In this document: in pieces, positions 9,068 to 34,178 of the stretch
Position numbering within the stretch: position 1 is the stretch's first letter
Layout of the letters: each line of letters begins with the position of its first letter
Source of the DNA: Bacteroidota bacterium
GTDB taxonomy: Bacteria > Bacteroidota > Bacteroidia > Bacteroidales > VadinHA17
DNA length: 34,417 bases
NCBI GenBank assembly: GCA_011049175.1
Contig: DSCJ01000118.1
Coordinates: 80,392 to 114,808, forward strand
Direction: 5' to 3'
The notes under the pieces: generated by a model
The model's input: the letters and a program-made list of their open reading frames with translations, nothing else
Databases searched by the model: none
Told to the model about the DNA's origin: nothing
Program-made: the position numbers and the translations under genes

Positions 9068-12000
9068 ATGATCAATTTAAATTCAGCTGAGAAACTTCTG
9101 GAATGGTTGAACGGGGAAACGATTGAAACCTGGTTTGATCTGGGTCTTTTTGTTGATCGGTTCCGCGAAGAAAGAGATACCCGATCACCCAGGTTTTATG
9201 AAGATTATGAAGCATTTGCCGAATACCTGAAATCCGGAGGAATAGCGTTTGTTACATTTTCTTTTTCAGTAGACGGAGTAAGTATTGAGATTGAAAAATA
9301 TGCTTCCGCTTTAAGAAATCTTTTTCCGGGTATCCCTATTCACTACGTTGCCGGGCAATTTCATCCGGAGTCATATAAAATGATCCACCCCGAAACCAGG
9401 AAAAAAACCATTACTGAAGCCGCAGGCTTCGACAGCTGGCCTCTGTACCGTGATTATTTTTTTAAGAAACTGGAACGTGGATCGGTTTTGTACAACGAAC
9501 TCATAGGAAAATTATGGAAAGAAGTAAAGACCATTGTGGCTCAGCTGGCAGAATATGCGTTGGAACAGAAAATATCCCTTTTTTTTCCGGTCAATGTGTG
9601 CTCAAATCCGGGTAATGTTTCACTGGCCATTGCACTGGTGCTTGTTTCAGAATATATGAATATCCCGGTGATTAATAATGCCCATGATTATTACTGGGAA
9701 GGGGGTAACCGGCCTGAGGATATTAAAAAACACCGCCTGAGAAAAGGTCCGAGGGATTTCTTTTTTACCAATGCACATCTGGGAGAAGTGTTTTCTCCCA
9801 TGGAAGTATTTTATCCCTGGGAATCAAGAACATGGATCACGGTAAATATCAACAGGAGGCAGTCAGATCATGTAATACGATTGAGCGGGCACAATCCGGC
9901 CAATGTGTTGGAAGTAGGAACAGCGGTGGATATGAATCAGTATACAACCACCAACAAAAGGATTAAGATCAATACATTTTACCAGTTCGAGCAGGTCCTT
10001 AGCCGGTACAGACAGATTCTGGTAAGTTATTCGGTGGATGATGCATTTTCCAACCGGCTGGTGGAGGAAAAAGATCCACGTCCGATCCTGATTAACGGAT
10101 ATCAAACACGTCCACTAAAAAATTTTCTCGCCGAGAATATCATTTTCTTGCAACCCACCCGCATTATTTCAAGAAAAAAAATAGAAGTTTCATTTCGGTT
10201 GATAAGGAAATTATTTGAATTTCATGAATTTACAGAAAAATTTTCCGAGACGGAAAATCTGAAACTGACACTGCTGGTAACGGGACCCATTGCCAGCGGT
10301 CATTTTGATTATTTTGAGAAGCTTCTGCAACGGTTTGACAGGTTGGTCAATGAACTGCCGGAACCATTCCGTCAGAAAATCTATCTGGCGTTTCTTTTCA
10401 GCGAACTGGACAAGGAACATTTCAAACGCAGGTTTGAAAAACCGGTAGGAATCCCGGAACTTTACAATATTGCTTCACTGGTACTGTTACCCAGTGAAAC
10501 AGAGGGAAGAGGTCTGCCCATTATAGAGGCAGCTGCCTGCGGGGTTCCCATATTCTGCAGGAAATATGAACCACAGAATGTTTATGAGGAAGTGATTGGT
10601 TTGCACCTGCCAGAAAAAGACCGTTTGCAGGTGATTGAATTTGACGGTCTGAACATTACACGCACCCACATCAAAAAGATACTGAACAGGGTTTTCTTTC
10701 CACATCTTTTTCAGGCCGAGGTATTTCATAACCAGATGGCCGTGAAAAAAAGATACAGCCTGGATTCTCTCGAAAAGTGTATGGATTGGATTTGCCGAAG
10801 ACTGTATCACCGGCTGCAAGATGAAAGCGGTGCGTCTGAGGATACAGTAGCCCGTATACAACGGTACAGACAGAAAATATTGTTCCGGAATGATACCCTG
10901 CGGGAGATCATACCTGAAGCTCGCAGGCAATATTTACCGGGTTTCGGTAAAATGGGCTTCATGATCTTTCTGAAATCATTGATCGATCCGAGTTATTTCA
11001 GGGTGGAAGAACAATATTTACGGGGAACAGCCATGCAGTTTGCAAGGGAAATGGTGAAGGATGAACAGGAAAAGGTGAAAATTCCTGAAGAGAAAATCAC
11101 TTCATTTTACAATGCGGTAGATGCGGTTTTCCGGTATTGCGAAGGGAACTATAAAATAATGCATGATCATTCCTTCGCATACCGTTACAGAGGTAGGAAA
11201 CGTTTTGCCTGGCATGATTTTACCATTCAGGAAATGACCGGATTGATCAATATGATTTTTATTGAGATTGTGCAGCCTGATAAAACCACCCGTGTACTGG
11301 AAACGAGTCATTTTTTCACCGACTGGAACCTGGCGCTGAGTCAGCTGACAGGGAGTTCGCATATTGCCCTTGACGACAGAAAATGGTTATTCGAAAGGAT
11401 GAAGGCCAATGTCCCCATAGTAATATTTGCCGGGAGGTATGTCAGTCACGAGCTGGAATTTTTCGCGCTGCAATCGATCCGGTCCAGAATGAAGCTTGAT
11501 CTGCAGGAGGAGCTGACGCGGGAAGTACTGCAGGAAAGTGCTTCGGCCATTGCACCGGTTTATGTTTTTGCCCAGAAGTTTACCGTAAGGAACTGGCCGG
11601 AAGTGAGTGAAATAGAGAAGTTCATTAAAAGCGGCCGGTCGGGGGAACTTAAATTGCTGTATGATTACAAACTGGTTCGGATCGTACCGGTAAAACAATG
11701 GTGTGTGGGTATTCATCTGCCGCAGCTGGGAGAAAAGGCCATTGCGATTCTGAAAGAAATAAGAGACCGGAACGGACTGATCATAACCCACCGAAAAGAC
11801 TCGGTGATCATGTCAGATATCATGGATATTGACCGGGTACATATTGGCAAGGTGGAGGATCCGTTAACCGAAGGATTCATGGGAATACCCATGGGAAGCG
11901 GTTTTATTATCCACATTCCGGCAGGTCTCCGGGTTTGCCTGTCGTATCCGGTCCCGATACAAACGGCCAGGCAGTTCCACGAGGCCTTGCATGGGGAAAC

Positions 12001-13249
12001 GTTTAGAAAAATGTGTGAGCGATACGGAACAACCAACGTATTGAAAGAGCTAAAAAAAGATGCGGAAAATAATGGTTCCCCGGTGGCTCATGTGCTGAGA
12101 AAATTGGCGGCAGGACCCGCATCACAACAACAAAAAATAGACTATCAGTATGTGAATGGTTTGTATGAAGATGGGATGCCATGGAACGGCGTACTGGCAA
12201 GGCTGAAAACGGGTACGGAAAGAAAATGGAAGTTTGTTGCCATTCGTGCCAATGCATCGCCGAAAAAAGTAACGCAGTTAGTCATGGATTTTGAGTTGCA
12301 AACAGGACATAAGACCCATGTGGCCTGGAACGGAGGCTATATTCTGAATGCCGAGCTGGTTGGAAAGCTCGGGCTTCCGGAATCGTATATTGGTTCTCCC
12401 CTAGGTATGATCATCACCGGTGGAAAAATACTGTCTGCCCCGCTGTTTTCAAAACCCGCCTTTCTGGTAGACCGTGAAGGTAACATGACCATCCGGCGGA
12501 TCAGTCTTTCTGAAGGGATTACTCTTTTCGACGAACAGGATGAAATACAAATGACAGGTGGACAGAGAAATCCTGTTCGGATACCTGACGACCGCCCGTG
12601 TTTCTATGACCTGATGTATGCCGGCAAGACTGTTCCGGCCAGGGGAAGAACTATTGTCAGGATGGCGGGTGATCGGATTATGGAAATAATACGAAAACCG
12701 GCAAGTGGCAGGGTGAAAATCATCCCGGTGGGTATTACCCTTTCTTTTCCGGAAGGACAGATGCCTGGTGGGTGGATGTATGAAGGAAAAGTACTGCAAA
12801 TTCGCATACCCGGATTTGAAAACATTCAGGATGCCATTGAAGCAGGTCCGTTGCTGGTGAAAAACGGGGAAAAATGCATTGATATGGAATTGGAAGGATG
12901 GAAAACGGCCTTTTCGATCGCAACGCAGGCTGCCAGGCTCGATTACACCGATATGCGGGGCCCGAAAATTGCGGCGGGAACGGATGGGCAAGGTAATCTT
13001 ATCCTTCTTGCGGTAAATGGTCGGATTCGGGAGTCGGTGGGGGCTACTCACGGGGATATGGCCGATATCATGCTCCGGTACGGAGCACACGATGCTATGG
13101 GATTCGACCCGGGAGGAAGCAGCACCCTGATGGTGGAAGGGAAAACGCTCAATATTTCGCCCTACAACAGCCGGTATCAGGAAAATGTGTTTTCTTTGCC
13201 CCCGGAACCCAGGGCTGTGTCGAATGCCGTGATCGGGTTCCTCGAGTAA
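9068..13249 (+). CDS. Giant fusion: GT4-like glycosyltransferase + unknown middle region + phosphodiester glycosidase
   Basis: A 1393-residue protein with no signal peptide. Residues about 58-575 form a two-Rossmann GT-B glycosyltransferase: SVDGVSIEIEKY (67-78), HDYYWEGGNR (206-215), the LVTGPIASG strand-loop (403-411) and the GT4 EX7E motif E479-E487 in ETEGRGLPIIEAAACG. Residues about 600-1040 form a region I cannot assign. Residues about 1050-1393 match the NAGPA/DUF2233 phosphodiester glycosidase domain: WNGGY (1087-1091), AGTDGQGNL (1303-1311) and the hallmark DPGGSSTL (1347-1354). Such domains in characterised members cleave sugar-1-phosphodiesters. One chain thus carries a sugar-transfer and a sugar-phosphodiester-cleaving module, expected in the cytoplasm as no export signal is seen. 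hemW follows 10 bp later. Substrates are unknown. Confidence 0.85.
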   Translation: MINLNSAEKLLEWLNGETIETWFDLGLFVDRFREERDTRSPRFYEDYEAFAEYLKSGGIAFVTFSFSVDGVSIEIEKYASALRNLFPGIPIHYVAGQFHPESYKMIHPETRKKTITEAAGFDSWPLYRDYFFKKLERGSVLYNELIGKLWKEVKTIVAQLAEYALEQKISLFFPVNVCSNPGNVSLAIALVLVSEYMNIPVINNAHDYYWEGGNRPEDIKKHRLRKGPRDFFFTNAHLGEVFSPMEVFYPWESRTWITVNINRRQSDHVIRLSGHNPANVLEVGTAVDMNQYTTTNKRIKINTFYQFEQVLSRYRQILVSYSVDDAFSNRLVEEKDPRPILINGYQTRPLKNFLAENIIFLQPTRIISRKKIEVSFRLIRKLFEFHEFTEKFSETENLKLTLLVTGPIASGHFDYFEKLLQRFDRLVNELPEPFRQKIYLAFLFSELDKEHFKRRFEKPVGIPELYNIASLVLLPSETEGRGLPIIEAAACGVPIFCRKYEPQNVYEEVIGLHLPEKDRLQVIEFDGLNITRTHIKKILNRVFFPHLFQAEVFHNQMAVKKRYSLDSLEKCMDWICRRLYHRLQDESGASEDTVARIQRYRQKILFRNDTLREIIPEARRQYLPGFGKMGFMIFLKSLIDPSYFRVEEQYLRGTAMQFAREMVKDEQEKVKIPEEKITSFYNAVDAVFRYCEGNYKIMHDHSFAYRYRGRKRFAWHDFTIQEMTGLINMIFIEIVQPDKTTRVLETSHFFTDWNLALSQLTGSSHIALDDRKWLFERMKANVPIVIFAGRYVSHELEFFALQSIRSRMKLDLQEELTREVLQESASAIAPVYVFAQKFTVRNWPEVSEIEKFIKSGRSGELKLLYDYKLVRIVPVKQWCVGIHLPQLGEKAIAILKEIRDRNGLIITHRKDSVIMSDIMDIDRVHIGKVEDPLTEGFMGIPMGSGFIIHIPAGLRVCLSYPVPIQTARQFHEALHGETFRKMCERYGTTNVLKELKKDAENNGSPVAHVLRKLAAGPASQQQKIDYQYVNGLYEDGMPWNGVLARLKTGTERKWKFVAIRANASPKKVTQLVMDFELQTGHKTHVAWNGGYILNAELVGKLGLPESYIGSPLGMIITGGKILSAPLFSKPAFLVDREGNMTIRRISLSEGITLFDEQDEIQMTGGQRNPVRIPDDRPCFYDLMYAGKTVPARGRTIVRMAGDRIMEIIRKPASGRVKIIPVGITLSFPEGQMPGGWMYEGKVLQIRIPGFENIQDAIEAGPLLVKNGEKCIDMELEGWKTAFSIATQAARLDYTDMRGPKIAAGTDGQGNLILLAVNGRIRESVGATHGDMADIMLRYGAHDAMGFDPGGSSTLMVEGKTLNISPYNSRYQENVFSLPPEPRAVSNAVIGFLE

Positions 13250-14411: not shown

Positions 14412-15698
14412 TCAGGCAAGGCCTGTGTGGCGGATCAGCTCATGCAGCTTTTGCTCCAGCACATCGTAAGAAAAATACTTTTTACCCAGCTGAAAATTGT
14501 ATTCACCAATTTCCCGGTTCAATTCATCATTGTAAATTATTTCGGCCATTTCGCGCACCTTTTCACCGGTCAGCCGGTTGTTTTCCAGCATCACGGTTTT
14601 GAAACCCTTGCTTCCGATATCGGGCCAGAAAACCGGCTTGTAATTGTTTACAAATATGGGAGTCCTGGCCAGTACCGCTTCTACAAAGGCATTGCCAAAG
14701 CCCTCGTAGGTGCTGAAATAGGTACATGCCCGGGCATGGGCGTAGGCGTCGGAAAGGGAGTAATTGATCTCTCTGTTCTGACCATGCAAACCACGGTTAT
14801 GAAAATTATCGCTGGCAAAACGAACCTGCGACCCCAGTTTCAGATCATGGATCAGATCGACCAGCTTCTGGTAATATCTGTTTCCTTCGTCGTCTGCCTG
14901 GCTCCCGGTGATGATCAATTTCAACCGGGGATCATCCAGCCGGTGTACCAGTTCTATGGCTACCTCAATGGCTTTCCGGCTGACAATACGAGTGATCTGG
15001 AACAGCAGGATATCGTTTTTGTCAAACCCAAGGTTTTCCCTCAGGTTTTTGTTTTTTTCTGTAATCTCACCGAAAGGCTGGTCAAAATTCATCACGTTGG
15101 GTACCACCACCGCATCACGGCCATATTTTTCCAGCAGGGTTCTCTGGGCATTTGTATTGATTACGGCGTGATAACTGTTTGGCAGGCGCAGTGGAAAATT
15201 TTCGGCAATAAAACGGTTGATATCCTCATGCGGAGAGAGGTAACGGTCGCCGCGTTCCCATGCAAAATCGTGATCATGGGTGATAATCGGAATATCCAGT
15301 TGTTGAGCCGCTTTACGAATCCCGAAGCCCATTTCGAGGTGGGAGGGAAGGGAAGAAGCATTTTCTGAGATCAGGAGCTGCAGCTTTTTATCCTTTACCC
15401 AGGCTTTGATTTTGTTTGCAATGATGTTGGAATAAAGGAAAATGTGGGCTTTCAATTCATCCAGGTCGGTATCGGGGTGAAAAAAGGCCTTTTTCTGGCT
15501 CCAGAAACTTTCCGGACTGAAAAACGACATTTCAGGAACCAGCGTTTCGAACTCATGATTCATGGGTCTTTCCTGATACTGGCCTGACAGGATATATACT
15601 TCATGGCCCATTCTTCTCAGCACATGGATCCATTTTTCTGCCTCCAGGGCCACTCCGTCAATCCCGCCGATCCTGCCAATGATCATACCAATTGTCAT
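14412..15698 (-). CDS. GT4-family glycosyltransferase, paralogous to the fusion's N-terminal part
   Basis: A 428-residue GT-B glycosyltransferase, cytoplasmic or peripheral. It has the N-terminal donor/acceptor loop GRIGGIDGVALEAEKW, the HDHDFAWERGDRY segment, QITRIVSRKAIEVAI at the start of the C-terminal Rossmann domain, LIITGSQADDEG, and the GT4 EX7E in STYEGFGNAFVEA. The order and wording of these motifs parallel the 1393-residue fusion (SVDGVSIEIEKY; HDYYWEGGNR; PTRIISRKKIEV), so the two share ancestry. It is the last gene of the long minus-strand run, 28 bp behind the coiled-coil gene. Donor and acceptor are unknown; a link to envelope glycan or to the upstream cluster is an inference from position. 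Confidence 0.9.
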   Translation of the reverse strand: MTIGMIIGRIGGIDGVALEAEKWIHVLRRMGHEVYILSGQYQERPMNHEFETLVPEMSFFSPESFWSQKKAFFHPDTDLDELKAHIFLYSNIIANKIKAWVKDKKLQLLISENASSLPSHLEMGFGIRKAAQQLDIPIITHDHDFAWERGDRYLSPHEDINRFIAENFPLRLPNSYHAVINTNAQRTLLEKYGRDAVVVPNVMNFDQPFGEITEKNKNLRENLGFDKNDILLFQITRIVSRKAIEVAIELVHRLDDPRLKLIITGSQADDEGNRYYQKLVDLIHDLKLGSQVRFASDNFHNRGLHGQNREINYSLSDAYAHARACTYFSTYEGFGNAFVEAVLARTPIFVNNYKPVFWPDIGSKGFKTVMLENNRLTGEKVREMAEIIYNDELNREIGEYNFQLGKKYFSYDVLEQKLHELIRHTGLA

Positions 15699-15726: not shown

Positions 15727-16647
15727 TTATTTCAACAGGAATTCGGTAGACCCGATCATGTGCCCGTCGGCGTAGAGGGTGGCGGTATATTCGCCGGGAA
15801 TGAATTGCCCGTCGTTCGGATAATAGATACACATTTCCACATCCTGATTCATATATTCCACTTCTCTTCTGGCCGAGTAAACAATGATGTTGTCCTGGTA
15901 TTCGAAAAGGTTGTCAACCGAAAGGGTAAGTACCAGCTCATCTGGCCTGACCAGACGCAGGTAAACGTATCGTTTGCCGGCAGGAGCGATAGGATTTTCA
16001 CGCAGGGTAAAACATACTACGATCTGTTCCATACGGTTGATCCTGTCTCTTTCCTTTCCCCGGCTGTTAATGGGGGTTACTGTAATGTCAGTGGCCTTGA
16101 TTACCGATGCCTTTTGCACTTTTGATGACAGCTCTTCCCTTATCTGGGAAAGCTCTTCCTTTTCAGTCTGCGCCTGCTCCAGCTGTGTTTTGACCTGGAG
16201 GTTTTCTTCTACCAGGAGTTTGTTGCGGGTATTCAGTGAGTCGATCTGGATAATGTACGACCGCATCACATCTCTCAGAGTTGACAGTTCTTTTTTATAT
16301 AACTGGATCTTTTCCACGTTGGAAGCCTGAATGGCCAGCAGTTGCCTGATCTTGTCCTGTTCGCGCTCCAGTTGCACATTGAGACTGTCGTTGTTGGTTT
16401 TGAGAGTGTCGTATCCATGGATCATGGCATTCAGCTCTTTTGTAAGAGAATCCTTTTCTTCCGTAAGTACCCTTTCCATGACCACCATCTCCTTTTTGGT
16501 GGTGATTTGCAGATAGGCCAGCACCCCAATGCCAACGAGTAATATTATGCTGGCAATAATCCATCCGGTGGCTTTTTTCCCTCCGGAGGCAGGCGGTGCC
16601 TGAATCTTTTCCGCCTCTTTTCCCTGTGGATTGTTTTTTGTTTCCAT
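15727..16647 (-). CDS. Membrane-anchored coiled-coil protein of unknown function
   Basis: A 306-residue protein of no family I recognise. A polar N-terminus is followed by one transmembrane helix (about 28-47, ending GVLAYLQI), then a long coiled coil (about 50-190) rich in Glu, Lys, Leu and Asp-Ser-Leu repeats, and a C-terminal beta-rich region (about 205-306) that ends GSTEFLLK and includes the YYPNDGQFIPGEYTATLYAD segment. The topology suggests a short cytoplasmic tail and a periplasmic rod ending in a globular domain. The ATG at 16645-16647 was chosen over a GTG at 16680, whose extension adds nothing protein-like. It lies between the TPR gene (65 bp) and the glycosyltransferase (28 bp). 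It may be a structural part of the envelope assembly suggested by its neighbours. Confidence 0.75.
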   Translation of the reverse strand: METKNNPQGKEAEKIQAPPASGGKKATGWIIASIILLVGIGVLAYLQITTKKEMVVMERVLTEEKDSLTKELNAMIHGYDTLKTNNDSLNVQLEREQDKIRQLLAIQASNVEKIQLYKKELSTLRDVMRSYIIQIDSLNTRNKLLVEENLQVKTQLEQAQTEKEELSQIREELSSKVQKASVIKATDITVTPINSRGKERDRINRMEQIVVCFTLRENPIAPAGKRYVYLRLVRPDELVLTLSVDNLFEYQDNIIVYSARREVEYMNQDVEMCIYYPNDGQFIPGEYTATLYADGHMIGSTEFLLK

Positions 16648-16712
16648 AAATGCCTGGTGCGTGTGTGTAAAGAACGTCACAAAGTTAGGGATATTTTCCT
16701 CATCTGCTTATG

Positions 16713-17348
16713 TTATTTTATCTGTTCCAGTCCCTCCAGGGCTGAAGATCCTCCGGGAGTATGCATCAGGGCCTTCTGGAAAAGAACGCTGGCCTCGTTA
16801 ATCCGGTTCAGTTTCAATTTGGTCCAACCCAGCATGATCAGTGCATCATAATCAAATGGATACAGGTTCACCACCTTTTCGAAATAGGGGAGAGCCCGGT
16901 GGTAGTCTTCTCTTCCATAATAGATCAGTCCCAGGCGGTGAAGGGCGACCGATTGATTGGGACAGATCTCGAGGATTTTTTCATACTGGGCTATTACCAC
17001 GTTCCAGTTTCCCATGGCTGAGGCTGGATATACCAGCCCGAAGCGGGGTTCCACTGCGTAAGGCATGAGGGAAACGGCTTTGTTGTAATAGGCAATGGAT
17101 TCAGTAAACAGCCCTCGCTGATAAGTAAGCCATCCAAGCCGTAGGTTGAGCTCGTATGATTTTTCATCATATACTTCCTTCAGGGCATCGATGGCTTTCT
17201 GATAATCCCCCGATGCTTCTTCCAGATAACTTTGCTGGAACTGACTGATCACTTTGTTCATATTTTGGGTCTGACCCGTCATTTGTTGCGGGGGCCATAA
17301 CCACAGGGTCATCATGACCGTCCAGATGATTTTCTTTAGAAATTCCAT
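16713..17348 (-). CDS. Exported tetratricopeptide-repeat protein
   Basis: A 211-residue TPR protein. A signal peptide (MEFLKKIIWTVMMTLWLWPP, then QQMTGQ) is followed by about four to five TPR units (GDYQKAIDALKEVY, GLFTESIAYYNKAVSLMP, NQSVALHRLGLIYYGREDYH, DALIMLGWTKLKLNRINEAS), so it is probably a periplasmic protein-interaction module. Its ATG (17346-17348) lies inside the end of the TPR/beta-barrel gene, with a 13-bp overlap, pointing to translational coupling and a shared complex. No enzymatic motif is present. Confidence 0.88.
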   Translation of the reverse strand: MEFLKKIIWTVMMTLWLWPPQQMTGQTQNMNKVISQFQQSYLEEASGDYQKAIDALKEVYDEKSYELNLRLGWLTYQRGLFTESIAYYNKAVSLMPYAVEPRFGLVYPASAMGNWNVVIAQYEKILEICPNQSVALHRLGLIYYGREDYHRALPYFEKVVNLYPFDYDALIMLGWTKLKLNRINEASVLFQKALMHTPGGSSALEGLEQIK

Positions 17349-18670
17349 TGTATTCCTCCGTTTAAGGTATGTACGTTATAGTTAACATGATTTGTGCCCA
17401 CCGGTGCATCGGCAGGATAGGTATTGTATGTACTGTGAAGTTTTGAAAGGGTATAACTCAATGTTAATTGTGCATTGTTTTTCAGTAAAAAGATGAGGTT
17501 TCCTCCCGCCATAAATTCGATATAATCCAGTGAATTAAAAACGGATGCTCCCAGGTTGTCTGAAAAATTTTGAAGATTACCCGTGTATCCAAACAACTCC
17601 ATCCAAAGTGATCCTGTCACTTTCCATCCCAGCTTTTCTCTGAATACGTATCTTTCATCTACGGTGCTGTTCCCGAAATGCTCGGTAATTCTTGAAATTC
17701 CGGTAACCGAATAAAGATTCAGATTTCCGAGGGGGTAACAGGTAAGTTGCAGGTTCTGTTGCCAGTGACGGAGCTGGTTGATATAGGTATAGGTACCCGA
17801 TATATCCAGATTGAAAGGACCGGCCTCCTGGTTATACGACAGGTGCAGAACCACATCATTTGAAATAAATTCGGGTGCCAGCTGGATAACATTACCGAAG
17901 CCCTGTCGCTGATAAAGAGCGGGGCTTTTGGTATATAAATAGTGAAAGGAGGTAATGAACGAAGCTCCCCGGAAGGCTCTGATCATGGCCTGAAGATAGT
18001 ACTGGTGCTGGGAAGTGTTTCTTTCAGGAACCATATATGCATAATCAGGACCATGGTAATAAAACAGATCGTTCTTATGGATGTAGGTATACATGTGTTG
18101 CAGGTGTATACGCGAAGACAGGGTGTGACCCAGGGAGGCGCTGAAGTAATGAAAATGCCGGGTAAGGAACTGCATGCCATCCGATGTGTCGGAGGGTATG
18201 GTATAATGGCTGAAGACATCCTGGTCGTTGTTGAATGAATATTGATAATTCAAACCGAACCGGGTTATATGCGATGATCTGTCAAGAAGGTTTTTTACAC
18301 GGAACGACATGGGAAGCCTGGGTATCAGTGCCTGTAGATCGGCATAACGGCTGGAATACAGGTAGCAATAATATAAATATTCCAGGGCTGTTTTATCGCC
18401 TGAATTGAAATCCTGTGCTGCCCGAAAATGAGGGATAGCCCCCCGGTAGTTGGCTGTTTCGTAAAAGGCTATGCCCAGTCTCATCCTGAGATAATAGTAA
18501 TCATGTCCCTTCCCGAGGGCCTCTTTCCCCGCTTTCTTCAGTGCGTCCCAGTCGTTGATAAGGTATAGCCGGTACGTTAACGTATCGTAATGGATAAAAT
18601 CATCATTCTCCTGTGCCGGGGTGCCACGGAAATTCAGTAAAATCAGCGGTATGATCAGAAAACGGTACAT
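17336..18670 (-). CDS. TPR plus outer-membrane beta-barrel protein
   Basis: A 444-residue exported protein. The signal peptide MYRFLIIPLILLNFRGTPAQ is followed by TPR-like helices (about 28-135: YYYLRMRLGIAFYETANYRG, ALEYLYYCYLYSSRYADLQ) and then about 300 residues of alternating polar/hydrophobic strands rich in aromatic residues, ending in ...GGIQWNF with the terminal Phe typical of outer-membrane barrels. The barrel probably sits in the outer membrane with the TPR domain in the periplasm. The ATG at 18668-18670 overlaps the end of the UT/M23 gene by 16 bp and its own stop overlaps the next TPR gene by 13 bp, so all three are tightly coupled. The family is not one I can name. Confidence 0.85.
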   Translation of the reverse strand: MYRFLIIPLILLNFRGTPAQENDDFIHYDTLTYRLYLINDWDALKKAGKEALGKGHDYYYLRMRLGIAFYETANYRGAIPHFRAAQDFNSGDKTALEYLYYCYLYSSRYADLQALIPRLPMSFRVKNLLDRSSHITRFGLNYQYSFNNDQDVFSHYTIPSDTSDGMQFLTRHFHYFSASLGHTLSSRIHLQHMYTYIHKNDLFYYHGPDYAYMVPERNTSQHQYYLQAMIRAFRGASFITSFHYLYTKSPALYQRQGFGNVIQLAPEFISNDVVLHLSYNQEAGPFNLDISGTYTYINQLRHWQQNLQLTCYPLGNLNLYSVTGISRITEHFGNSTVDERYVFREKLGWKVTGSLWMELFGYTGNLQNFSDNLGASVFNSLDYIEFMAGGNLIFLLKNNAQLTLSYTLSKLHSTYNTYPADAPVGTNHVNYNVHTLNGGIQWNF

Positions 18671-20853
18671 GTTGCACGGATTTTATCTTTCTTCGCTTTG
18701 ATCTCAAGTCGGTAAACACCCCCGGTTTCCAGCGTGATATCCACGGGGATGCGCTTCAATGGTTGGCGCAGAAATCGGGTGGTGATCAGTGCTTTCAGTG
18801 AAATGCTCCCGGGTGACATGTCATCGTCCTGTTCAAGGTATTCCAGTGTGTACCGGGTTCCCAGGAACATAAAGAACGGGGCCAGGAAATCCTGCAGGAA
18901 CAGCTGGGTCCGGCTGAAAAGAAAATGCACCGGGTAACTGTCATCAATTTTCAGGTTCTTGTAAAATCCCAGAGGAATTTTGTAAAATGAAAGATAGATA
19001 TAATATAAAAGACCGCTTCTTTTTCCCTGATAATGGGTAAAATAAAACAAACTTCCGTCGTTGTGAAAATAGGCCTTGGCCCCGGTTTCCCGGCAATGGA
19101 TATAACTTTTGTTATAGGCATCGGCGTTGATTTCCCATTCTTCTGAATGTGGTAAATGGTTGTGTGTATATTCACAACGGATATGCTGGCCGGGTATCAG
19201 GCGGAAGGATTTCTGAAGCAGGGGGTTCAGTTGAATGTTTGAAACCTGCCAGTCCCTGGCGGGTTTCTGATGCATGCAGAAACAATATCCGTTCCCGGTA
19301 TTCCTGATGAAATAGCTTATGGGATAATCCAGGGTGGCCGATCCGATATAGGGAGTGGTTTGCAGCTGGAAATGCAAATGCGGGTATGGTGAACGGCCTG
19401 AATTTCCCACGCGGGCAATTACCTGTCCTTCTTTAACCCTGTCGCCGGGCTTTACGGTAGCCGATTCTTTTTTCAGGTGGCTCAGCTTGGAATAAAGCCC
19501 GTCTTTATGTCTGATCACGATCGTATTGCCCCAATTTTGTTTCAGATTGACTTCTCCTACCGGGTTATCATGCACATCGTCCACTACCTCTTCCACCACC
19601 CCTTCGCCCGGTGCGGTTACCGATTTGTTGAAACAGTGGTAATCTTCCAGGTTTTCGCCTTCTTTTTTATAGGTTTTTCCGTCGTTCCCCTGGATAACAA
19701 AATCCCACGCGTGCTTCCATTCGTCTTTGTGGGTATATTCCCCGTCATGTCCCTGTGAAACGGTCCATTCTCCCCAGAAGGGCAGCTTGAAAGGAAAATA
19801 CTGAAGATACCGGAAACGGTCTGATTCATTTATGAAGGTATACAGGTTCTTTTCGGGCTGGTTGTACTGGACCCATACCTCACGGAGACCTTCGGATACA
19901 CGGGTTCTGAATTTCAGGACATAAAGAAACAAAAGAACGATGAGATTAAAAGGCAGCGCATAGATCGACAGGCCGAATACCAGAAAGATCTTGTTCAGGC
20001 TAATGGTGATAATGGCTACCAGGGGAATCAGAAACAGGGTCCACAGGTAACTGGCACGGGACGGGATCAGAAAAAATCCTCCGATAGCAATGGAAGTCAG
20101 GATATAATTGAAGCCGATATAACTGTAGTTGAAGCTGTTCAGGTCGGCGCCGATAATGTGGTAGAAAAGGTATGCAGCATAAAATCCTAACAAGGAAAGT
20201 GAAAAGGCGATCCTGGAAAAATAAAGCAATCCCATGGCGATCATGATACCTGAAAGTACGCTGTACTGAAAGAATATGGCGCCCAGGCTGATAAAATAAG
20301 TGCGCAGTGATTCGGGAATAGCCAGCGAATTCCACCATTCGTACAGGGCCACCAGACGGTTCCCTCCTATCAGGTACAGGTCGTTCAGGGTGTAAATGCC
20401 CCGGTCGCTGATTCCCAGCGCCGTGAAATCTCTCGTGGCGAGAAAAACCAGCCAGAGCGACAGAATAAACGGCATACTCAGGGCCGGTAAACCGTATTTT
20501 CCGATTACTCCCTGAAGGCTCATGGAAATAAACAGGGTGAACACGGAAGCCAGTACCAGGATCAGAAAAAACAACCACCCCGGACCGAAATAAATACCCA
20601 GGCCCAGTCCTACCAGAAGGCTGTTAAAGCCCAGCAATCCTTTTCTGATAGTTTCCGGGTGAAAATGCAGTGCACGGGCCAGCAGGTTGGTGATCAAAAC
20701 CGACAACAACCCGCAGAATCCTGCAAAAGCGTCGAAAAAAGTAACCATGATCAGCAGAACGGCAAACACCAGGTTATCGGAAAAGAAAACCTGCGAATAG
20801 CTGTTGGCCGTACACCTCAGGAACAGCAAGGTTTCTGCTTTCAGTTTTTTCAT
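18655..20853 (-). CDS. Fusion of a urea-transporter-like channel and an M23 peptidase-like domain
   Basis: A 732-residue protein in three parts. Residues about 20-315 are hydrophobic, with around ten membrane helices, and resemble the urea transporter (UT) family, including the motif GLLGFNSLLVGLGLG (72-86) and a second-repeat counterpart near IGFNYILTSIAIGGFF (246-261). Residues about 355-510 are an M23/LytM-type domain: YTHKDEW (373-379) and HAWDF (381-385) supply the first-motif His/Asp, LSHL contributes His459, and HLHFQL gives His492/His494, so a zinc site looks intact. Residues 510-732 are a beta-rich tail of unknown type. UT proteins conduct urea and related small solutes; M23 enzymes usually cut peptidoglycan cross-bridges. 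The start lies 1 bp after the PLP-enzyme stop and the end overlaps the barrel gene. Confidence 0.82.
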   Translation of the reverse strand: MKKLKAETLLFLRCTANSYSQVFFSDNLVFAVLLIMVTFFDAFAGFCGLLSVLITNLLARALHFHPETIRKGLLGFNSLLVGLGLGIYFGPGWLFFLILVLASVFTLFISMSLQGVIGKYGLPALSMPFILSLWLVFLATRDFTALGISDRGIYTLNDLYLIGGNRLVALYEWWNSLAIPESLRTYFISLGAIFFQYSVLSGIMIAMGLLYFSRIAFSLSLLGFYAAYLFYHIIGADLNSFNYSYIGFNYILTSIAIGGFFLIPSRASYLWTLFLIPLVAIITISLNKIFLVFGLSIYALPFNLIVLLFLYVLKFRTRVSEGLREVWVQYNQPEKNLYTFINESDRFRYLQYFPFKLPFWGEWTVSQGHDGEYTHKDEWKHAWDFVIQGNDGKTYKKEGENLEDYHCFNKSVTAPGEGVVEEVVDDVHDNPVGEVNLKQNWGNTIVIRHKDGLYSKLSHLKKESATVKPGDRVKEGQVIARVGNSGRSPYPHLHFQLQTTPYIGSATLDYPISYFIRNTGNGYCFCMHQKPARDWQVSNIQLNPLLQKSFRLIPGQHIRCEYTHNHLPHSEEWEINADAYNKSYIHCRETGAKAYFHNDGSLFYFTHYQGKRSGLLYYIYLSFYKIPLGFYKNLKIDDSYPVHFLFSRTQLFLQDFLAPFFMFLGTRYTLEYLEQDDDMSPGSISLKALITTRFLRQPLKRIPVDITLETGGVYRLEIKAKKDKIRATCTVF

Positions 20854-20854
20854 A

Positions 20855-22213
20855 CTATTGCTTTTTTGCTTGCAGATGGCCGGGAATCCTTTCCTGCTGG
20901 CGAATGGTTTCCAGGCTTTCCTTTTCTCTGATCAGATGTACTTTACTTTCGGGATCGATCATCACCACGTTGGGCCGCAGGGTGATGAACTGCATCCACT
21001 GTGTCATATTGTATGCCCCGATACGGCTGATCACGAAGCGGTCGCCTGTTTTCAGCAAGGGGAAAACCATGCTCTCCCTGATCACATCGATGTTCATGCA
21101 CAGGGGGCCGAACACGGCGGTTTCTTCCGTATGCTGGGTGGTCGGCCTGGCCGGCGATATCTGGTGTTCATACCAGAAAGAAGTGAACAACAGGTTGACA
21201 CCCACATCTACAATAGTGGAGCGGTACCCGCTGGACAGGCGCTTATTGGCAATGACCGTTCCCAGCAGGTAGCCGGCATCGTCAATCAGGGCCCTTCCCG
21301 TTTCCAGAATCAGCATGGGAAGGTTTTCGGGTTTGATGCCCGAATTAATCAGAGCGGAGGTAATGGCTTCGGCATATTCATCGAATGAAGGAGCCGTGTC
21401 TGTTCCAGGCAGATAAGCTCCTTTCAGTGTGTTTTTCGAAGCGAACCCACCTCCCATATCGATATATTTTATCACATGGCCGTATTTTCTTTCCAGACCG
21501 GTTGCCAGATCGGCCAGTTTGGCTGCGGCAATGCCGTATGCTTCCGTGGTCATCATATAGGTTCCGATGTGCGCATGCAGTCCTTCCAGCTCAAACGATT
21601 CGCTGATCATAATGCGGTTGAGGGCATCCCAGGCTTCCCCGTTTTCATAATTGAACCCGAAACGGTCCCATTTCGGGTAAATTCCCACATCCATATTCAC
21701 CCTGATGGCCACCCTGGGTCTGGTTTTCAAGGTAGCGGCCAGTTGTTTGAGTGTATACAACTCGTCGAAATGGTCAATGTGAATATAGGCTTTCTGCTCA
21801 ATGGCTTTTTTCAGGTATTCTTCCGGTTTGTCGGGCCCGTTGAACAGGATCTTGTTTCCGGGAATTCCGTTTGCCAGGGCTTTGTCGAATTCGAATCCCG
21901 AAACCACTTCAGCCCAGGAGCCCTCCTGGTGGAATACCCTGCATACAGCGTCGAGGTAATTGGTTTTGTACGACCAGGCGAACTGCACTTTCGGATAGCG
22001 GGTGGAAAATGCCCGATAAGCTTCCTGGTAGGTTTCGCGCATGGTTTTTTCCGAAATGACGAACAGGGGAGAACCATACTTCTGGATGAGTTCTTCCACG
22101 GCAACGTCGTCAATATGGGTAACGGGTTTGATTTCTGTTTTCATGCCGAATTTGCTTGGCATTCCGGCACTGAGCTTTTTGATAAAGGGACGTTCAAAGG
22201 CAATTTTTTCCAT
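20855..22213 (-). CDS. Fold-III PLP-dependent decarboxylase-like enzyme (LysA/DapDC relative)
   Basis: A 452-residue enzyme with the alanine-racemase-like barrel of group IV decarboxylases. Visible are the PLP Lys83 in SYKTNY, HAHIGTY (213-219), the PLP phosphate loop DMGGGF (252-257), ETGRAL (304-309, in place of the usual EPGR), the catalytic Cys region GPLCMNID (369-376) and GAYNMTQW (399-406). All catalytic positions look filled, so it is probably active on an amino acid. The ETGR and NMTQW variants and an extended N-terminus argue against housekeeping LysA. It may decarboxylate diaminopimelate, ornithine, arginine or another carboxylated amine. The ATP-grasp gene lies 25 bp upstream and the UT/M23 gene 1 bp downstream. 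Confidence 0.85.
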   Translation of the reverse strand: MEKIAFERPFIKKLSAGMPSKFGMKTEIKPVTHIDDVAVEELIQKYGSPLFVISEKTMRETYQEAYRAFSTRYPKVQFAWSYKTNYLDAVCRVFHQEGSWAEVVSGFEFDKALANGIPGNKILFNGPDKPEEYLKKAIEQKAYIHIDHFDELYTLKQLAATLKTRPRVAIRVNMDVGIYPKWDRFGFNYENGEAWDALNRIMISESFELEGLHAHIGTYMMTTEAYGIAAAKLADLATGLERKYGHVIKYIDMGGGFASKNTLKGAYLPGTDTAPSFDEYAEAITSALINSGIKPENLPMLILETGRALIDDAGYLLGTVIANKRLSSGYRSTIVDVGVNLLFTSFWYEHQISPARPTTQHTEETAVFGPLCMNIDVIRESMVFPLLKTGDRFVISRIGAYNMTQWMQFITLRPNVVMIDPESKVHLIREKESLETIRQQERIPGHLQAKKQ

Positions 22214-22238
22214 AACGGCTTATTTCTTGTAAAGGATT

Positions 22239-23312
22239 CTAGATCGATTTGAATGATTTTTCCGGTTCCACTTCGCCCAGGGTGGAGAGCTGTTCGAACC
22301 TGGGCAGATCCACGATCATGTCGTAAGAATACCTCACGAACATTTTTCCCACATCATAACGCCTGAAGGGTTTCACTTCCATTCCCAGGGCCAGTTTCAC
22401 CAGGGCTTCGGGTAGGTTTTGTCCGGCCCCCACCGCCAGGTATACCCAGGCTGGGATACGTGGATTGATCTCGATCACATACAGTTCGTTCCGGGTGGTC
22501 TTGATCAGTTCCAGTTCCATGCCTCCCCGCCAGTGTGTTTTTGAAATGATGTGACGTGTCAGCTCCATCATGGCCGGATCGTCGAGGGTAATGCCGCCCC
22601 ATGCCTTTCCCTTGTCGGTAATGTACTGCTTGCGCATGGGAACGGCTCCCACGGTTTGTCCCGTTCCGTCACCCAGGGCTACCACATTTACCTCGGTTCC
22701 GCGGATGAATTCCTGAATGATCACCGGCAGGCCCCACTTGGCGGATATCTTATTATAATGCATTCTTACCTGCTCTTCATTGTATGCCAGGTAGGCGTCG
22801 TAGAACTTTCCCTTGACCATGAGGGGGTACTCAAATTCCTCCCGGAGTTTCTCAATGTCCTGGTATGATAAAATGTCCTTGCTCTTTGGCACCAGAACAT
22901 CGTATTTTTTCCCGAAGCGGGGCAGGTTTGATTTGTGCCTTTCCTCAAGCTGTGACAGGGTGGGGAGAAAAGTGCGGACACCCATTTTTTCAAGGCGGTC
23001 TGACGATTTCATAAAGGTATACAGCTCTGCATCGAAATTAGGGATCAGTACATCGATCTTTTCTTTCGACTGGATGTATTCCAGTCTTTCCAGCAGGGCT
23101 TCCACTCCGTCGGAAGGATAGGGGATCATATAGGTACGGTCGGTAATTCCCGGCATATAAATTCCCGGCTCAAGGGTCTCGTAAGCCAGGCCTACCACTT
23201 CCATGGAAAAGGTTCCCGATTCCCGGATGCTTCTGATCACCGGAACACCCGGGCCGGGGTTGTCGGTGTTGTTCAGGCCGGTGGCAGCCAGTTTGAGCTT
23301 GATTTTTGACAT
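22239..23312 (-). CDS. ATP-grasp ligase, carbamoyl-phosphate-synthase-like
   Basis: A 357-residue ATP-grasp enzyme. The N-terminal pre-ATP domain begins with the unusual signature TGLNNTDNPGPG (11-22); the ATP-grasp core shows YPLMVKGKFYDA (162-173), IIQEFIRGTEVNV (198-210) and the metal-binding EINPR (281-285). Enzymes of this fold activate a carboxylate with ATP and join it to an amine or other nucleophile. The sequence looks closest to the CPSase large-subunit type, but it has one ATP-grasp unit only and no oligomerisation or allosteric domain, so it is not CarB. It sits between the PqqD-like gene (44 bp) and the PLP enzyme (25 bp), suggesting a joint pathway. Substrate unknown. Confidence 0.87.
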   Translation of the reverse strand: MSKIKLKLAATGLNNTDNPGPGVPVIRSIRESGTFSMEVVGLAYETLEPGIYMPGITDRTYMIPYPSDGVEALLERLEYIQSKEKIDVLIPNFDAELYTFMKSSDRLEKMGVRTFLPTLSQLEERHKSNLPRFGKKYDVLVPKSKDILSYQDIEKLREEFEYPLMVKGKFYDAYLAYNEEQVRMHYNKISAKWGLPVIIQEFIRGTEVNVVALGDGTGQTVGAVPMRKQYITDKGKAWGGITLDDPAMMELTRHIISKTHWRGGMELELIKTTRNELYVIEINPRIPAWVYLAVGAGQNLPEALVKLALGMEVKPFRRYDVGKMFVRYSYDMIVDLPRFEQLSTLGEVEPEKSFKSI

Positions 23313-23356
23313 ATGATTTTGATAGGTCGTTTCAATAAATAACTGAAAAGCGGAAA

Positions 23357-23605
23357 TTATTCCCCGTTTTCCAACAGGTTGAATTGTTTCAGCATCCCGA
23401 TAAAATCGTAATAATACCTTTCCAGTGTGGCATCGTCCACATCGTATTTCCCGGTAAGGTCCCTGATGATATCCTCATTACTCCTGCCCTGCTGCAACAG
23501 TTTTACGATTTCCGTTCCAATGGGATTCAGTGAGTAGGATTCACCTGACGAGGGATCGAATACAAATCCGGAATCACTGACAGCAATGTTTTTTCTAAGA
23601 CTCAT
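23357..23605 (-). CDS. PqqD-like small protein (RiPP-recognition fold)
   Basis: An 82-residue PqqD-family protein: NIAVSDSGFVFDPSSGESY, SLNPIGTEIVKLLQQG and a C-terminal helical part with DLTGKYDVDDATLERYYYDF. PqqD and its relatives are winged-helix domains that bind leader peptides and present them to modifying enzymes. The ATG at 23603-23605 gives the normal length; a TTG at 23641 was rejected. It is the first gene of the enzyme trio with ATP-grasp and PLP genes. No precursor peptide was found next to it, so it may instead bind another protein or carry a different role. Family confident, function open. Confidence 0.88.
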   Translation of the reverse strand: MSLRKNIAVSDSGFVFDPSSGESYSLNPIGTEIVKLLQQGRSNEDIIRDLTGKYDVDDATLERYYYDFIGMLKQFNLLENGE

Positions 23606-23659: not shown

Positions 23660-24295
23660 TTATCCTTCCATGATCCGATGAAATTCTTCGGCGGAAAGGA
23701 TAACCGGTGAATATGTTTCGTTGCGCCATTCCAGCAGCCTGACAAAGGTTCGCAGGTGGTTTTTCGAGGCTCTGAGCAGGTTGGCATAAACCCGAATAAC
23801 ATCCGGGTTCTCAGCAAATCCATCCAGCGCTTCCTGCAGGTCGGCAATATCGGTTTCTTCGATCAGGGCTGCTGCCCGGAGGGCTTCCAGCGGATCGTCT
23901 TTTCCCCTGGCAGTCAGCTCCATGTAAAGGGTTTTCCATTGTCTGTTTATAAACTCACCTTCGCTGGTATGGGCAGCCGGATCCTCCAGGTCATACCTTT
24001 CCAGAAGATACAGAATGGCATCCATATGGGCCTGTTCACTCCCGGCAATGTTGGCGAAGGGCCTCCATGAATGCCTTGAGTGGAAAAAGCGGTATACATC
24101 ACGGGCCAGTTTTTCTTCTTCTCTGAGAAGGATCAGGCTCCGGGCTTCCTCCCGGCTCAGGCTGGCTGTTTGCCCGGTGTTTTGGGGCTGCAGGCAGGGA
24201 GGTACAGCGGCTTGGTTTTTTGTTGTTTGTTTCTCCTGGCCGTTTGCCGAAAACAGGGTCCCGGCCAGCAGCAGGGGTATAATCAGGTGTTTCAT
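23660..24295 (-). CDS. Exported DUF2202 protein, ferritin-like
   Basis: A 211-residue protein with signal peptide MKHLIIPLLLAGTLFSANGQ and a DUF2202 domain (about 45-205). The domain is all helical with ferritin-like residues: EEEKLARD (59-66), the metal-type pair GSEQAHMDAI (85-94; Glu87, His90) and later EETDIADLQ and ASKNHLRTF. A di-metal site on a four-helix bundle is likely, in the periplasm. The length is normal. The ATG at 24293-24295 gives a complete signal peptide. It lies 54 bp upstream of the PqqD gene on the same strand and has a candidate promoter, so it may head the long transcript or simply be its neighbour. Function is unknown. Confidence 0.87.
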   Translation of the reverse strand: MKHLIIPLLLAGTLFSANGQEKQTTKNQAAVPPCLQPQNTGQTASLSREEARSLILLREEEKLARDVYRFFHSRHSWRPFANIAGSEQAHMDAILYLLERYDLEDPAAHTSEGEFINRQWKTLYMELTARGKDDPLEALRAAALIEETDIADLQEALDGFAENPDVIRVYANLLRASKNHLRTFVRLLEWRNETYSPVILSAEEFHRIMEG

Positions 24296-24419: not shown

Positions 24420-25016
24420 TCAATAAAGCTGGTCGATGGGTTTCCGGGATGCGCCTTTGCCCTGCTTGTATTCGCTTACCGTTACCCCGGTCACAGCATG
24501 AAATTGCCGGGAAAGATATTGTACACTGCTGTAATCCATCATGTAGGCAATTTCACTAAGGGAAAATTCGCCTTGGTCAACCAGTTCTTTGATCCGTTCG
24601 ATCTTCTGCAGGATAATGTACCGTTCCAGCGTTACAGGCTCATTGGCGGAAAATAATCTGGAAAGATACGGGTAGCTCAGACCCAGCTTTTCCACCAGGT
24701 AATCTGACTTGCGGGCGATGGAATCGACGTTGTTCATCTGATGGATCAGTTCGATGACCGCATGCTTAATCTGTTCCACCAGCCCCTTTTCGCGGTTTCT
24801 GATCAGTTCGAACCCCAGTTTTTCAATGGATTTTTCGATGTCTTCCCGGGTGTACAGGGAGGAATCCATGGAAACGGTCACTTTTCCCAGTTCGATTCCT
24901 TTGATACGGTATCCTTCACGCGTCAGTTTTTCGTGCAGATACCAGATGCAGCAGCGGCACACCATGTTTTTCACAAGGAAAGTTTCCGTTGGCCGTTGCG
25001 GTTTTGTTTTTTCCAT
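24420..25016 (-). CDS. AraC-family regulator with N-terminal HMA-like metal-binding domain
   Basis: A 198-residue protein joining two domains. Residues about 10-80 look like a heavy-metal-associated (HMA, CopZ-like) domain with the loop MVCRCC, which supplies the MxCxxC motif (Cys20, Cys23, plus Cys22), and the following GKVTVSMD strand and EDIEKSIEKLGFEL helix. Residues about 95-190 are an AraC helix-turn-helix pair (SLSEIAYMMDYSSVQYLSR and a weaker first one). Such HMA-AraC proteins often sit beside copper or other soft-metal export genes in Bacteroidota; none is present here. A good Shine-Dalgarno (GGGGAG) precedes the ATG, unusual for this window. lgt lies 62 bp upstream on the same strand. 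Confidence 0.85.
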   Translation of the reverse strand: MEKTKPQRPTETFLVKNMVCRCCIWYLHEKLTREGYRIKGIELGKVTVSMDSSLYTREDIEKSIEKLGFELIRNREKGLVEQIKHAVIELIHQMNNVDSIARKSDYLVEKLGLSYPYLSRLFSANEPVTLERYIILQKIERIKELVDQGEFSLSEIAYMMDYSSVQYLSRQFHAVTGVTVSEYKQGKGASRKPIDQLY

Positions 25017-30994: not shown

Positions 30995-33900
30995 TCAGGT
31001 TTGCTGCAAAAACCGGACAAGCTTCCGCAGGCTGTCCAGGTAAAGGGTGAGATACAGCAGGCTGGTGGTGAACCAGATAAATATGACATTGAACCAGGGG
31101 GTATGAATCAGCCGGCCGTTGATCATTTTATATGGGGCATAAAAATGTGCCCGCCCGAAATCAGATACAGGCATCATAAAAACGGGATCCATTTTCTGAA
31201 CAAACTCTCCCTGGGTTTGGATGATCTTTGTGGTTTGACGGGTATTTCTGAGAAGATCGGAAAGATAGGTGTTATGGTGTTTCAGCCTGAGGGTGTCGAA
31301 CCCTTCCCGGCCGTATATATGCGTAAGACTGTCGTATTTCTGGTTCCTCACGTTGTTGGCTTTCCGGTATAATTGTTCATAATGACTTTTGGTGTTGTAC
31401 AGGTAGTCCATTACCCGTTCGCTCAGCGACGCATCGAACAGGTCAGGTTGGAGGTATTCTTCCTGTACGAAGGGTTCCAGTCCGGTTCGCCGTGAAAGTT
31501 TGAACAGTTCATTCCTGAGCAGATTGATGTCTTCCCTGATCCATTCTTCATTGGTTTCATGAAATTCCTGATACATAAGAATTTCTTTTACCAGGTTTTC
31601 CAGCCGTGGGAGCAGAAAGGCCGTGTGGTAATTGCTCTCGCTGATCTGCTGATCGGCCTCGTAAAAGATTGATTCGAAGCGGTTATTCCGGAACTGTTCC
31701 ACGGCCATGGCTTCATAAGCCCACCGGGTGGTCATCAGGTCACCGATCACGGGTACGTATTTCCGGTTGGTAATGGCAGGGTGAAGGTCGTCAAAGTGGA
31801 TCATGGCTCCTCCGAAAAGGATCTGGGGAACCATGATCAGGGGAATGAGAATGTAAATGGTTATTACCGAATCGAAAGCCGATGAAATGTTCAATCCCAG
31901 CATGTTGGCAAAGCAGGAAGTGGTGAACAGGATCACCCAGAAGGATAGCCACATATCGTGTATGCCCAGGATCAAATGAGCCGGAATAACAAAGGACAGG
32001 GTTTGAATACCCGAAACGATAAAAAGATAACCGATTTTGGCATTCAGATAAGAGAACCGGCTCAGATTAAGGAATGATTCTCTCTGCAGGATCTTGCGGT
32101 CGCGTATGATTTCTTCCGCACTGACCGTAAGCCCCAGGAAAAGAGCCACTACCACCGACATGAAAAAGAAAACAGGAATATTTTTGTTGCTTCCGAAAAG
32201 GTAAATATCCGTTTCAATGAATTTGGTGAAGTATCCCAGGATGATGGCCAGGAGGGGGGCTTCCAGGAAATTGATCAGCAGGTATTGCCGGTCGGCCAGC
32301 TTGGTGCGAAGGTTTCTGTTGAAAAATATACGGAACTGTTCCAGAAGTCCGGGTATGGAAAACGGACTTTCCGGAAGGGGAGCCTCGGTGGGTTTGGGCA
32401 GGGAGGCTTTCGGCTCTATCCTTTCCTGATATTCCCGGTACCATTCGTGGGGCTTTGTCTTGCGTTCCTGTGTTTCATTTCCGTAATCGTCAATTGTCCT
32501 CGACTCGATAATCTGCAGAATCTGTTCGGGGTTTATGGTTCCGCAGGTGGGGCATTCTCCTTCAGCGGCATTTACCTGGCTGCTGATCTTTTTGAAATAG
32601 TTCACCGCATCCACCGGATTGCCCACGTAAACGGGATAACCCCCTGTGTCGAGAATGATAAGCTGGTCGAACATTTTGAAAATGCCTGAAGAAGGCTGGT
32701 GAATATTCACAAGGACCAGTTTGCCTTTGCGGGCCTGATTTTTCAGCAGCGACATGACCTTGTCGGAATCCATGGAAGAAAGTCCCGAGGTCGGTTCGTC
32801 CACAAACAAAACCGAAGGTTCTCTCATAAGCTCCAGCCCGATGTTCAGTCTTTTTCTCTGTCCTCCGCTGATGAACTTCTTCAGCGGATTCCCTACTTTC
32901 AGATGGGCCACTTCCACCAGGTTCAGATCTTTCAGCATGCTTCTGGTGATGCGGTTAATGTTTTTTTCGCTGAAATCCCTGAAACACAGGCGGGCATTGT
33001 AATAAAGATTTTCGTAAACGGTTAGTTCTTCCACCAGCAGGTCTTCCTGGGGGATATACCCGATAATTCCCTCCAGGGTTTTCCGGTGCCCGTATACATC
33101 GTATCCGTTAATCAGTATCCTGCCTTCATCAGGGGGCAGTGTTCCGTTGAGGATGTTCAGCAAAGTGGATTTTCCGGTACCGCTTCCTCCCATAATACCC
33201 ACCATCTCGCCGGAACCGGCGGTAAAGCTAAACGGATGTATACCGTTTTCACTGTTTTTGAACCGGAAGGAAATGTTTTCCACTGTCAGTCTAACAGGGG
33301 TTTTCAGGCGGTCCTCCATGAAGCGGGAGGCAATTTCGGTAAAATACAGGGAACGAATATTGGGCCCCTTGATAATGGCGCCCCGTTTCATAAAATAACT
33401 GTGCCCGGGAACAATCTTCTGGTTTTCAAGATACAGGTTCAGTTGACCGGTATATTTGAATATGAAGGCATCGATGCTGGATACATACAATAACAGGATC
33501 TGGCCGTAAAGATTTTCCACATACATATGTTTCATCTCCTCTTTCGATGAGGATTTCCTGTTGCGGGTCATGAACCAGGCCAGTTCCTGCGACCATTCCT
33601 TCAACTGGTTGTCAATAGCCAGCAGTTTGTCTTTTTCGATGTGTTCGGTTCCTTTGCCGACAATGAAATGATAGATGTTGTTGTATTCCGATTCTCCGAT
33701 GTTGAAAACCCGTGCCACCGTCCGTGCAAATTCTTCTTCCTCGCGGGTGACTTTTCCGTCTTCATTCACAAATTCCAGCAGGTAAAGGAAAACTTCCATG
33801 CGTTCGTTCCTCAGCAGGCCGTGCTTGATCTGCCTGCATACATTGGTTACCTGAAATGACAGGAGGGATTGCTGGCCGGGATAGGAAGCGGGATCGGCAT

Positions 33901-34093: not shown

Positions 34094-34178
34094 AGGTTGT
34101 ACCCGTTTGCTCAACGAAATTAATAAAATAATCAGGTTCTGCGCGATCTTTATCCTCAGGTAAGCATAAAATGCAGGG

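Follow-up and report, generated by a model that had tools for sequence, protein, structure and literature searches.

Do a small PqqD-like protein, two enzymes, and a set of envelope proteins whose genes adjoin in a Bacteroidota genome work together, and, if so, on what? The question is raised by positions 15727 to 23605 of a 34,417-nucleotide (nt) stretch of contig DSCJ01000118.1 (positions 80,392 to 114,808 of the forward strand; GenBank assembly GCA_011049175.1; Bacteroidales, VadinHA17), referred to here as the window. A first-pass annotation, made from the sequence alone, had described seven consecutive minus-strand genes in this interval. All seven open reading frames (ORFs) were confirmed on that strand, and their domain families were borne out at the same coordinates. 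The conserved unit consists of six of the seven, which encode a PqqD-like small protein, an ATP-grasp ligase, a pyridoxal phosphate (PLP)-dependent decarboxylase, a fusion of a urea transporter (UT) domain and an M23 peptidase (UT/M23), a protein with tetratricopeptide repeats (TPRs) and an outer-membrane barrel (TPR/barrel), and an exported TPR protein. These six genes almost certainly form one functional system.

Gene neighborhoods were surveyed in a collection containing one genome per species, with the ATP-grasp gene as the seed, which produced 80 loci with 49 to 94% identity to the seed. Across these loci, gene order was maintained (PqqD, ATP-grasp, PLP decarboxylase, UT/M23, barrel, and TPR), and all six core genes were present in 58 of them, most of the remainder being cut by a contig edge. 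In deeper branches, the order may be UT/M23, TPR, and barrel, with the barrel encoded as a separate protein of 270 to 300 amino acids (aa) that has no TPR part. Among 392 evenly sampled Bacteroidota genomes, full-length UT/M23, operon-type decarboxylase, and ATP-grasp genes were each found in 35 genomes; these were the same 35 genomes for all three, the genes were adjacent, and the carriers spanned 28 genera and 16 families. The first-pass annotation had held that recurrence of at least four members in unrelated genera would support a system, and the 58 loci and 28 genera showed this recurrence. One additional ATP-grasp match in the 392-genome sample (27% identity) was rejected as a member because it sits in a sugar-modification locus. 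All five of the remaining sampled genomes from the order to which the window belongs lack the unit, so its distribution is patchy. Pairwise divergences of the ATP-grasp, PLP, and UT/M23 proteins were correlated with one another (Spearman coefficient, 0.83 to 0.89). Plasmid spread was rejected, since only one 25%-identical Streptomyces protein, of different architecture, was found.

In four loci (L036, L042, L048, and L077), the enzyme trio lacked an adjoining UT/M23 gene. UT/M23 was present elsewhere in all four of these genomes, where it was followed by the barrel gene (4 of 4) and the TPR gene (3 of 4; the fourth reached a contig end). Because the split genomes keep both parts, two modules can be distinguished, a cytoplasmic enzyme trio and an envelope trio, and their co-occurrence after physical separation is the strongest evidence that the two trios work together. 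A chance neighborhood of unrelated genes, for which nothing speaks beyond the absence of a known function, has next to no probability; it is refuted by the identical presence and absence of three members across the 392 genomes and by the co-occurrence retained when the modules are split. The same exact co-occurrence (35 of 392 genomes) and intact split modules uphold the earlier claim of a single system. Within the envelope trio, the UT/M23 and barrel ORFs overlap by 12 to 15 nt and the barrel and TPR ORFs by about 12 nt in most loci, the latter overlap also being found in the window; these overlaps suggest that translation of the three genes is coupled. Scans for promoters and terminators gave signals no better than chance. 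PADLOC returned no defense-model match for any of the seven proteins (threshold, 1e-5), and an anti-phage defense system was rejected on that ground. Departures from the common arrangement were also seen. Locus L121 (G255) carries a 661-aa ORF between the PqqD and ATP-grasp genes and a shorter UT/M23 (532 aa) without the C-terminal domain, and a DUF4405 cytochrome-b-like membrane protein is encoded between the same two genes in L021 (9142 to 10005), L010, L019, L025, L027, and L030.

What the system might make is best approached through the third core gene (20855 to 22213, minus strand), which is predicted to encode a fold-III PLP decarboxylase (PF02784, E = 8e-31; PF00278, E = 4e-12). Residues of the PLP machinery, with roles taken from published work (PMC7857480), were invariant or nearly so in the family (K83, R171, H215, G254-256, E304, R307, and C372). 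The family profile gave 301 bits for FslC/FigC, compared with 226 bits for the best LysA and 146 bits for BtrK; as judged from sequence, the nearest solved relative is FslC/FigC, an N-citrylornithine decarboxylase. The operon copies always scored below the cutoff of the LysA model TIGR01048 (213 to 248 bits, compared with 297.9 bits), and a separate LysA above this cutoff was present in 31 of the 35 carriers; a moonlighting LysA was rejected on both grounds. Thr344 and Met373 stand, as in FslC, where solved LysA has Arg and Glu, which we take to read the far end of diaminopimelate. The score against the FslC N-citrylornithine decarboxylase model was also below its cutoff (233.7 bits, compared with 500 bits). 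Q405 and M407 occupy the places of FigC R387 and N389, which contact citrate (PMC7857480), and Q405 and Q408 are invariant in the family. Given the replacement of the citrate contacts and the invariance of the two glutamines, the enzyme probably binds a group other than citrate. Its PLP residues and its higher profile score for FigC than for LysA place it in the clade of alanine racemase-fold decarboxylases of modified amino acids, an assignment made from these two features. FigC, SbnH, AcsE, MccE, and BtrK are modified-amino-acid decarboxylases that stand outside polyamine synthesis (PMC7857480). The FslC/FigC enzyme decarboxylates an amino acid whose side chain has already been acylated.

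The putative partner of the decarboxylase is an ATP-grasp ligase encoded by the second core gene (22239 to 23312, minus strand; PF15632, E = 7e-10; PF02655, E = 2.5e-7), which also gave CPS-like profile matches. Its nucleotide and metal residues are retained (K127, K167, E268, E281, and N283), about 47 columns were invariant in 40 diverse sequences, and identity among sampled relatives ranged from 40 to 72%. Among solved structures, its closest relative is CPS-like, a likeness that does not tell the substrate. The first core gene (23357 to 23605, minus strand) encodes a protein of about 82 aa that belongs to the PqqD family (PF05402, E = 7.2e-13; 49.1 bits, compared with a gathering score of 23.4). 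It fitted PqqD-type models only and did not qualify as an acyl carrier protein. The start at 23605 chosen in the first-pass annotation is likelier than the mechanically called TTG at 23641, because homologues start there; in numbering from that TTG, G25, F26, F28, G33, and N39 were nearly invariant in 98 sequences.

PqqD proteins usually provide a handle for a peptide and are peptide chaperones in known pathways for ribosomally synthesized and posttranslationally modified peptides (RiPPs). A RiPP-like pathway, in which the PqqD-like protein would bind a ribosomal peptide or protein tail, the ATP-grasp ligase and decarboxylase would modify it, and the envelope trio would export or display it, would also fit the related decarboxylases MccE and BtrK, which act on a peptide and on a carrier protein, respectively (PMC7857480). 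This explanation, and a graspetide pathway with it, is weakened by the result that, in about 100 loci, no conserved short ORF was found up to 1.5 kb from the core, although a distant precursor gene is possible. Clusters of short ORFs were rejected as precursors, as they were frame shadows of neighboring genes. The PqqD family is shared with the PqqD and RiPP recognition element chaperones of such pathways, but here the conserved set contains neither a precursor peptide nor a radical SAM partner, and a protease and an ABC exporter likewise fall outside it. Furthermore, the pore of a urea channel is too narrow for a peptide. A RiPP-like product is therefore judged decidedly improbable.

How a product might leave the cytoplasm is suggested by the fourth core gene (18655 to 20853, minus strand), which encodes a 732-aa protein with matches to the UT family (PF03253, E = 6e-62) and to Peptidase_M23 (PF01551, E = 7e-18). 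The AlphaFold model of this protein (50 sequences; mean predicted local distance difference test [pLDDT] score, 91.7) contains three parts, all encoded on the minus strand. Residues 1 to 345 (19819 to 20853) are modeled as a urea-channel fold, with a Z score of 36 to urea transporters and deviations of 2.4 to 2.9 Å over 306 to 318 residues. Residues 349 to 515 (19309 to 19809) match LytM-type M23 peptidases (Z score, about 14), and residues 530 to 732 (18658 to 19266) form a large, conserved, beta-rich C-terminal domain that is confident in the model. The Pfam match and the channel fold are what would be expected of a locus for urea or nitrogen assimilation, but the score against the bacterial urea transporter model TIGR03441 was below its cutoff (128.5 bits, compared with 274.6 bits), and urease alpha was present in only 1 of the 35 carriers (and in 1 of 20 noncarriers). 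Of Q24 and E187, which we take to be the urea filter residues of dvUT, the glutamine is retained by 42 of 50 sequences, and the E187 equivalent (A192) is alanine in 41 of 50. Given this alanine and the near absence of urease, the UT channel probably serves something other than urea, and an assimilation locus is very improbable. Relative to the urea transporters dvUT and SLC14, the channel fold is shared, and the fusion to M23 and to a further domain is a difference, as is the alanine at the E187 position.

The zinc ligands and catalytic histidines of the M23 domain (H375, D384, H459, H492, and H494) were invariant in all 50 sequences, with the first His 9 residues ahead of the Asp, where 4 is usual. 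This invariant set points to a peptidase that is probably active. It also bears on an alternative in which the locus encodes an envelope-modification machine that attaches an amine-bearing group, made by the enzyme trio, to peptidoglycan or another part of the envelope, with UT/M23 and the TPR/barrel proteins remodeling or coupling the wall and the outer membrane instead of exporting a free product. Such a machine would give a place to the large conserved domain behind M23 and to the tight coupling of the TPR proteins and barrel to UT/M23, and there is a parallel in Selenomonas, which needs lysine decarboxylase to anchor its peptidoglycan to the outer membrane (mentioned in PMC8503589). However, the conserved set contains no transferase or lipid-carrier gene, and a task confined to the periplasm would not call for a protein with a channel fold. 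We regard envelope modification as a serious but unlikely alternative.

The outer-membrane end is represented by the fifth core gene (17336 to 18670, minus strand). The window copy of its product had no Pfam match, and TPR_2 was matched by 25 of 49 homologues. In the AlphaFold model (49 sequences; mean pLDDT score, 90), a TPR array (residues 22 to 131) is followed by an outer-membrane beta-barrel (residues 133 to 444) of about 14 strands, the best fold matches of which were FadL/TodX, CymA, and OmpG (Z scores, 19 to 20). On this model, the barrel has the fold of an outer-membrane pore and is linked to the TPR array. The sixth core gene (16713 to 17348, minus strand) is predicted to encode an exported TPR protein (PF07719 [TPR_2], E = 5e-22). 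FadL/TodX, CymA, and OmpG are uptake channels, UT proteins and 14-strand barrels are passive and work both ways, and the filter glutamine of the UT domain is mostly kept. All of this would agree with uptake, in which the barrel and UT would import a small amide-like solute for conjugation, storage, or use by the enzyme trio, with metallophore-like recovery as one version. The set nevertheless lacks a catabolic enzyme and a TonB-type receptor, and the pairing of a ligase with a decarboxylase looks biosynthetic; uptake is considered rather improbable.

The account that we tentatively prefer, at somewhat less than an even chance, is that the product of the enzyme trio is a small amine, acylated on its side chain, for which UT provides the way across the inner membrane and the barrel the way across the outer membrane, with M23 at the wall. 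The ATP-grasp ligase would couple either a carboxylate onto an amino acid side chain or an amine onto a carboxylate in such a side chain, and the PqqD-like protein would assist by serving as a handle for the substrate or the partner. The PLP enzyme would then take off the alpha-carboxyl group, so that the small conjugate ends up with its primary amine free. All or a piece of this conjugate would cross the inner membrane through the UT channel, beneath which the M23 domain would act on peptidoglycan; in the periplasm and at the outer membrane, the route would be completed by the TPR protein and the TPR/barrel. The first-pass annotation had proposed a route through UT at the inner membrane and the barrel at the outer membrane. 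The predicted folds are compatible with such a route; its substrate or product, its direction, and the role of the PqqD-like protein in it are what we infer. The accompanying claim of an amine conjugate draws indirect support from the FslC/FigC-like decarboxylase and its ligase partner.

Several points weigh against export of a small amine by this route. Known relatives of the UT channel have a narrow pore, which would restrict passage to a small product, and because the channel here is without the dvUT filter glutamate (A192), it may conduct nothing. Passive channels suit uptake no less than export, simple export leaves both the M23 domain and the conserved C-terminal domain unexplained, and PqqD, the usual handle of a peptide, fits a free small molecule poorly.

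Comparison with described systems indicates where the locus is familiar and where it departs. The rhizoferrin locus of Francisella (FslA/FigA, an NRPS-independent siderophore [NIS] synthetase; FslB/FigB, a major facilitator superfamily [MFS] exporter; and FslC/FigC) shares a ligase followed by an FslC-like decarboxylase, with inner-membrane transport adjoining. Here, ATP-grasp replaces the NIS synthetase, UT/M23 replaces the MFS exporter, the PqqD-like and TPR/barrel proteins are extra, and, as described above, Q405 and M407 stand in place of the citrate contacts. A NIS synthetase (IucA/IucC) is absent from the conserved set, the ligase in all core loci being of the ATP-grasp type. The side-chain trio of butirosin biosynthesis likewise combines a small protein (the carrier protein BtrI), a ligase (BtrJ, an ATP-grasp enzyme), and a PLP decarboxylase (BtrK) belonging to the same clade. 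It differs in using an acyl carrier protein instead of a PqqD-like protein and in having no envelope module, and BtrK is more distant than FslC. The exporters PgaA, BcsC, and AlgK/AlgE also place a TPR array ahead of an outer-membrane barrel. A polysaccharide exporter of this kind would be expected to have a polysaccharide synthase in its operon and a 16-strand barrel; the barrel here is modeled with about 14 strands, its best fold matches are FadL/TodX, CymA, and OmpG, and the conserved set contains no polysaccharide synthase. No paper on the gene set was found in the open-licence literature searched, although an earlier mention, for example in surveys of ATP-grasp neighborhoods, is possible. 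This result is consistent with the earlier statement that no named system has this composition. The system and its UT-M23-barrel module are apparently new, and each single part comes from a known family.

The seventh ORF of the original description (15727 to 16680, minus strand) is predicted to encode a 317-aa membrane-anchored coiled-coil protein with weak coiled-coil matches only. It was present in 8 of the 80 loci, in several of them beside glycosyltransferase and HemW genes, and it is a neighbor in one lineage, outside the core; the proposed seven-gene membership thus holds for the six core genes and not for this one. Two further genes are accessory. A DUF2202 ferritin-like exported protein (23660 to 24295, minus strand; PF09968, E = 9e-48) was encoded near the core in 23 of the 80 loci. 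An AraC-type regulator with an HMA-like N-terminal domain (24420 to 25016, minus strand; PF12833) was found in about half of them, upstream in line or divergent; its sometimes divergent position ahead of the PqqD gene fits a regulatory role, and it is a candidate regulator. The metal-binding cysteines of the HMA-like domain (MxCxxC) are kept in the window copy and lost in many relatives, and a link to metal sensing was dropped for the latter reason.

In several Prolixibacteraceae-type loci, the TPR gene is followed by genes for a protein with a type IX secretion system sorting tail (Por_Secre_tail; a cluster found in 17 loci) and a membrane acyltransferase (Acyl_transf_3/HGSNAT), located in L062 at 16773 to 17570 and 17567 to 18589. 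A sensor kinase and a LytTR-like response regulator are encoded as a pair beside the core in L065, L067, L057, L071, and L083. Elsewhere in the window, positions 14412 to 15698 (minus strand) encode a glycosyltransferase with full-length likeness to mannosylglucosylglycerate synthase (223 bits, compared with a cutoff of 640 bits). A 1,393-aa protein (9068 to 13249, plus strand) contains a glycosyltransferase-like stretch (residues about 460 to 500) and a C-terminal NAGPA phosphodiester glycosidase domain (residues 1249 to 1387), and its gene adjoins those of an Rrf2 regulator and a HemN/HemW-like radical SAM protein. A 1,039-aa ABC-2 type transporter (30995 to 34114, minus strand) carries its ATPase and membrane parts in a single chain and has a weak TerB-like match near its N terminus.

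Approximately 1 in 11 of the sampled Bacteroidota genomes is a carrier, and the enzyme trio is compact and highly conserved. The locus may represent a phylum-wide trans-envelope pathway in which fusion to a wall peptidase and pairing with a TPR-linked outer-membrane pore have given a urea-channel fold a new use, the passage of a dedicated small amine conjugate from the enzyme trio, a proposal that we hold tentatively and rate as somewhat less probable than its being wrong. If true, it would add a new kind of small-molecule route across both Gram-negative membranes, put the urea-channel fold in a role unrelated to urea, and extend the FslC-like decarboxylases to a new class of products.

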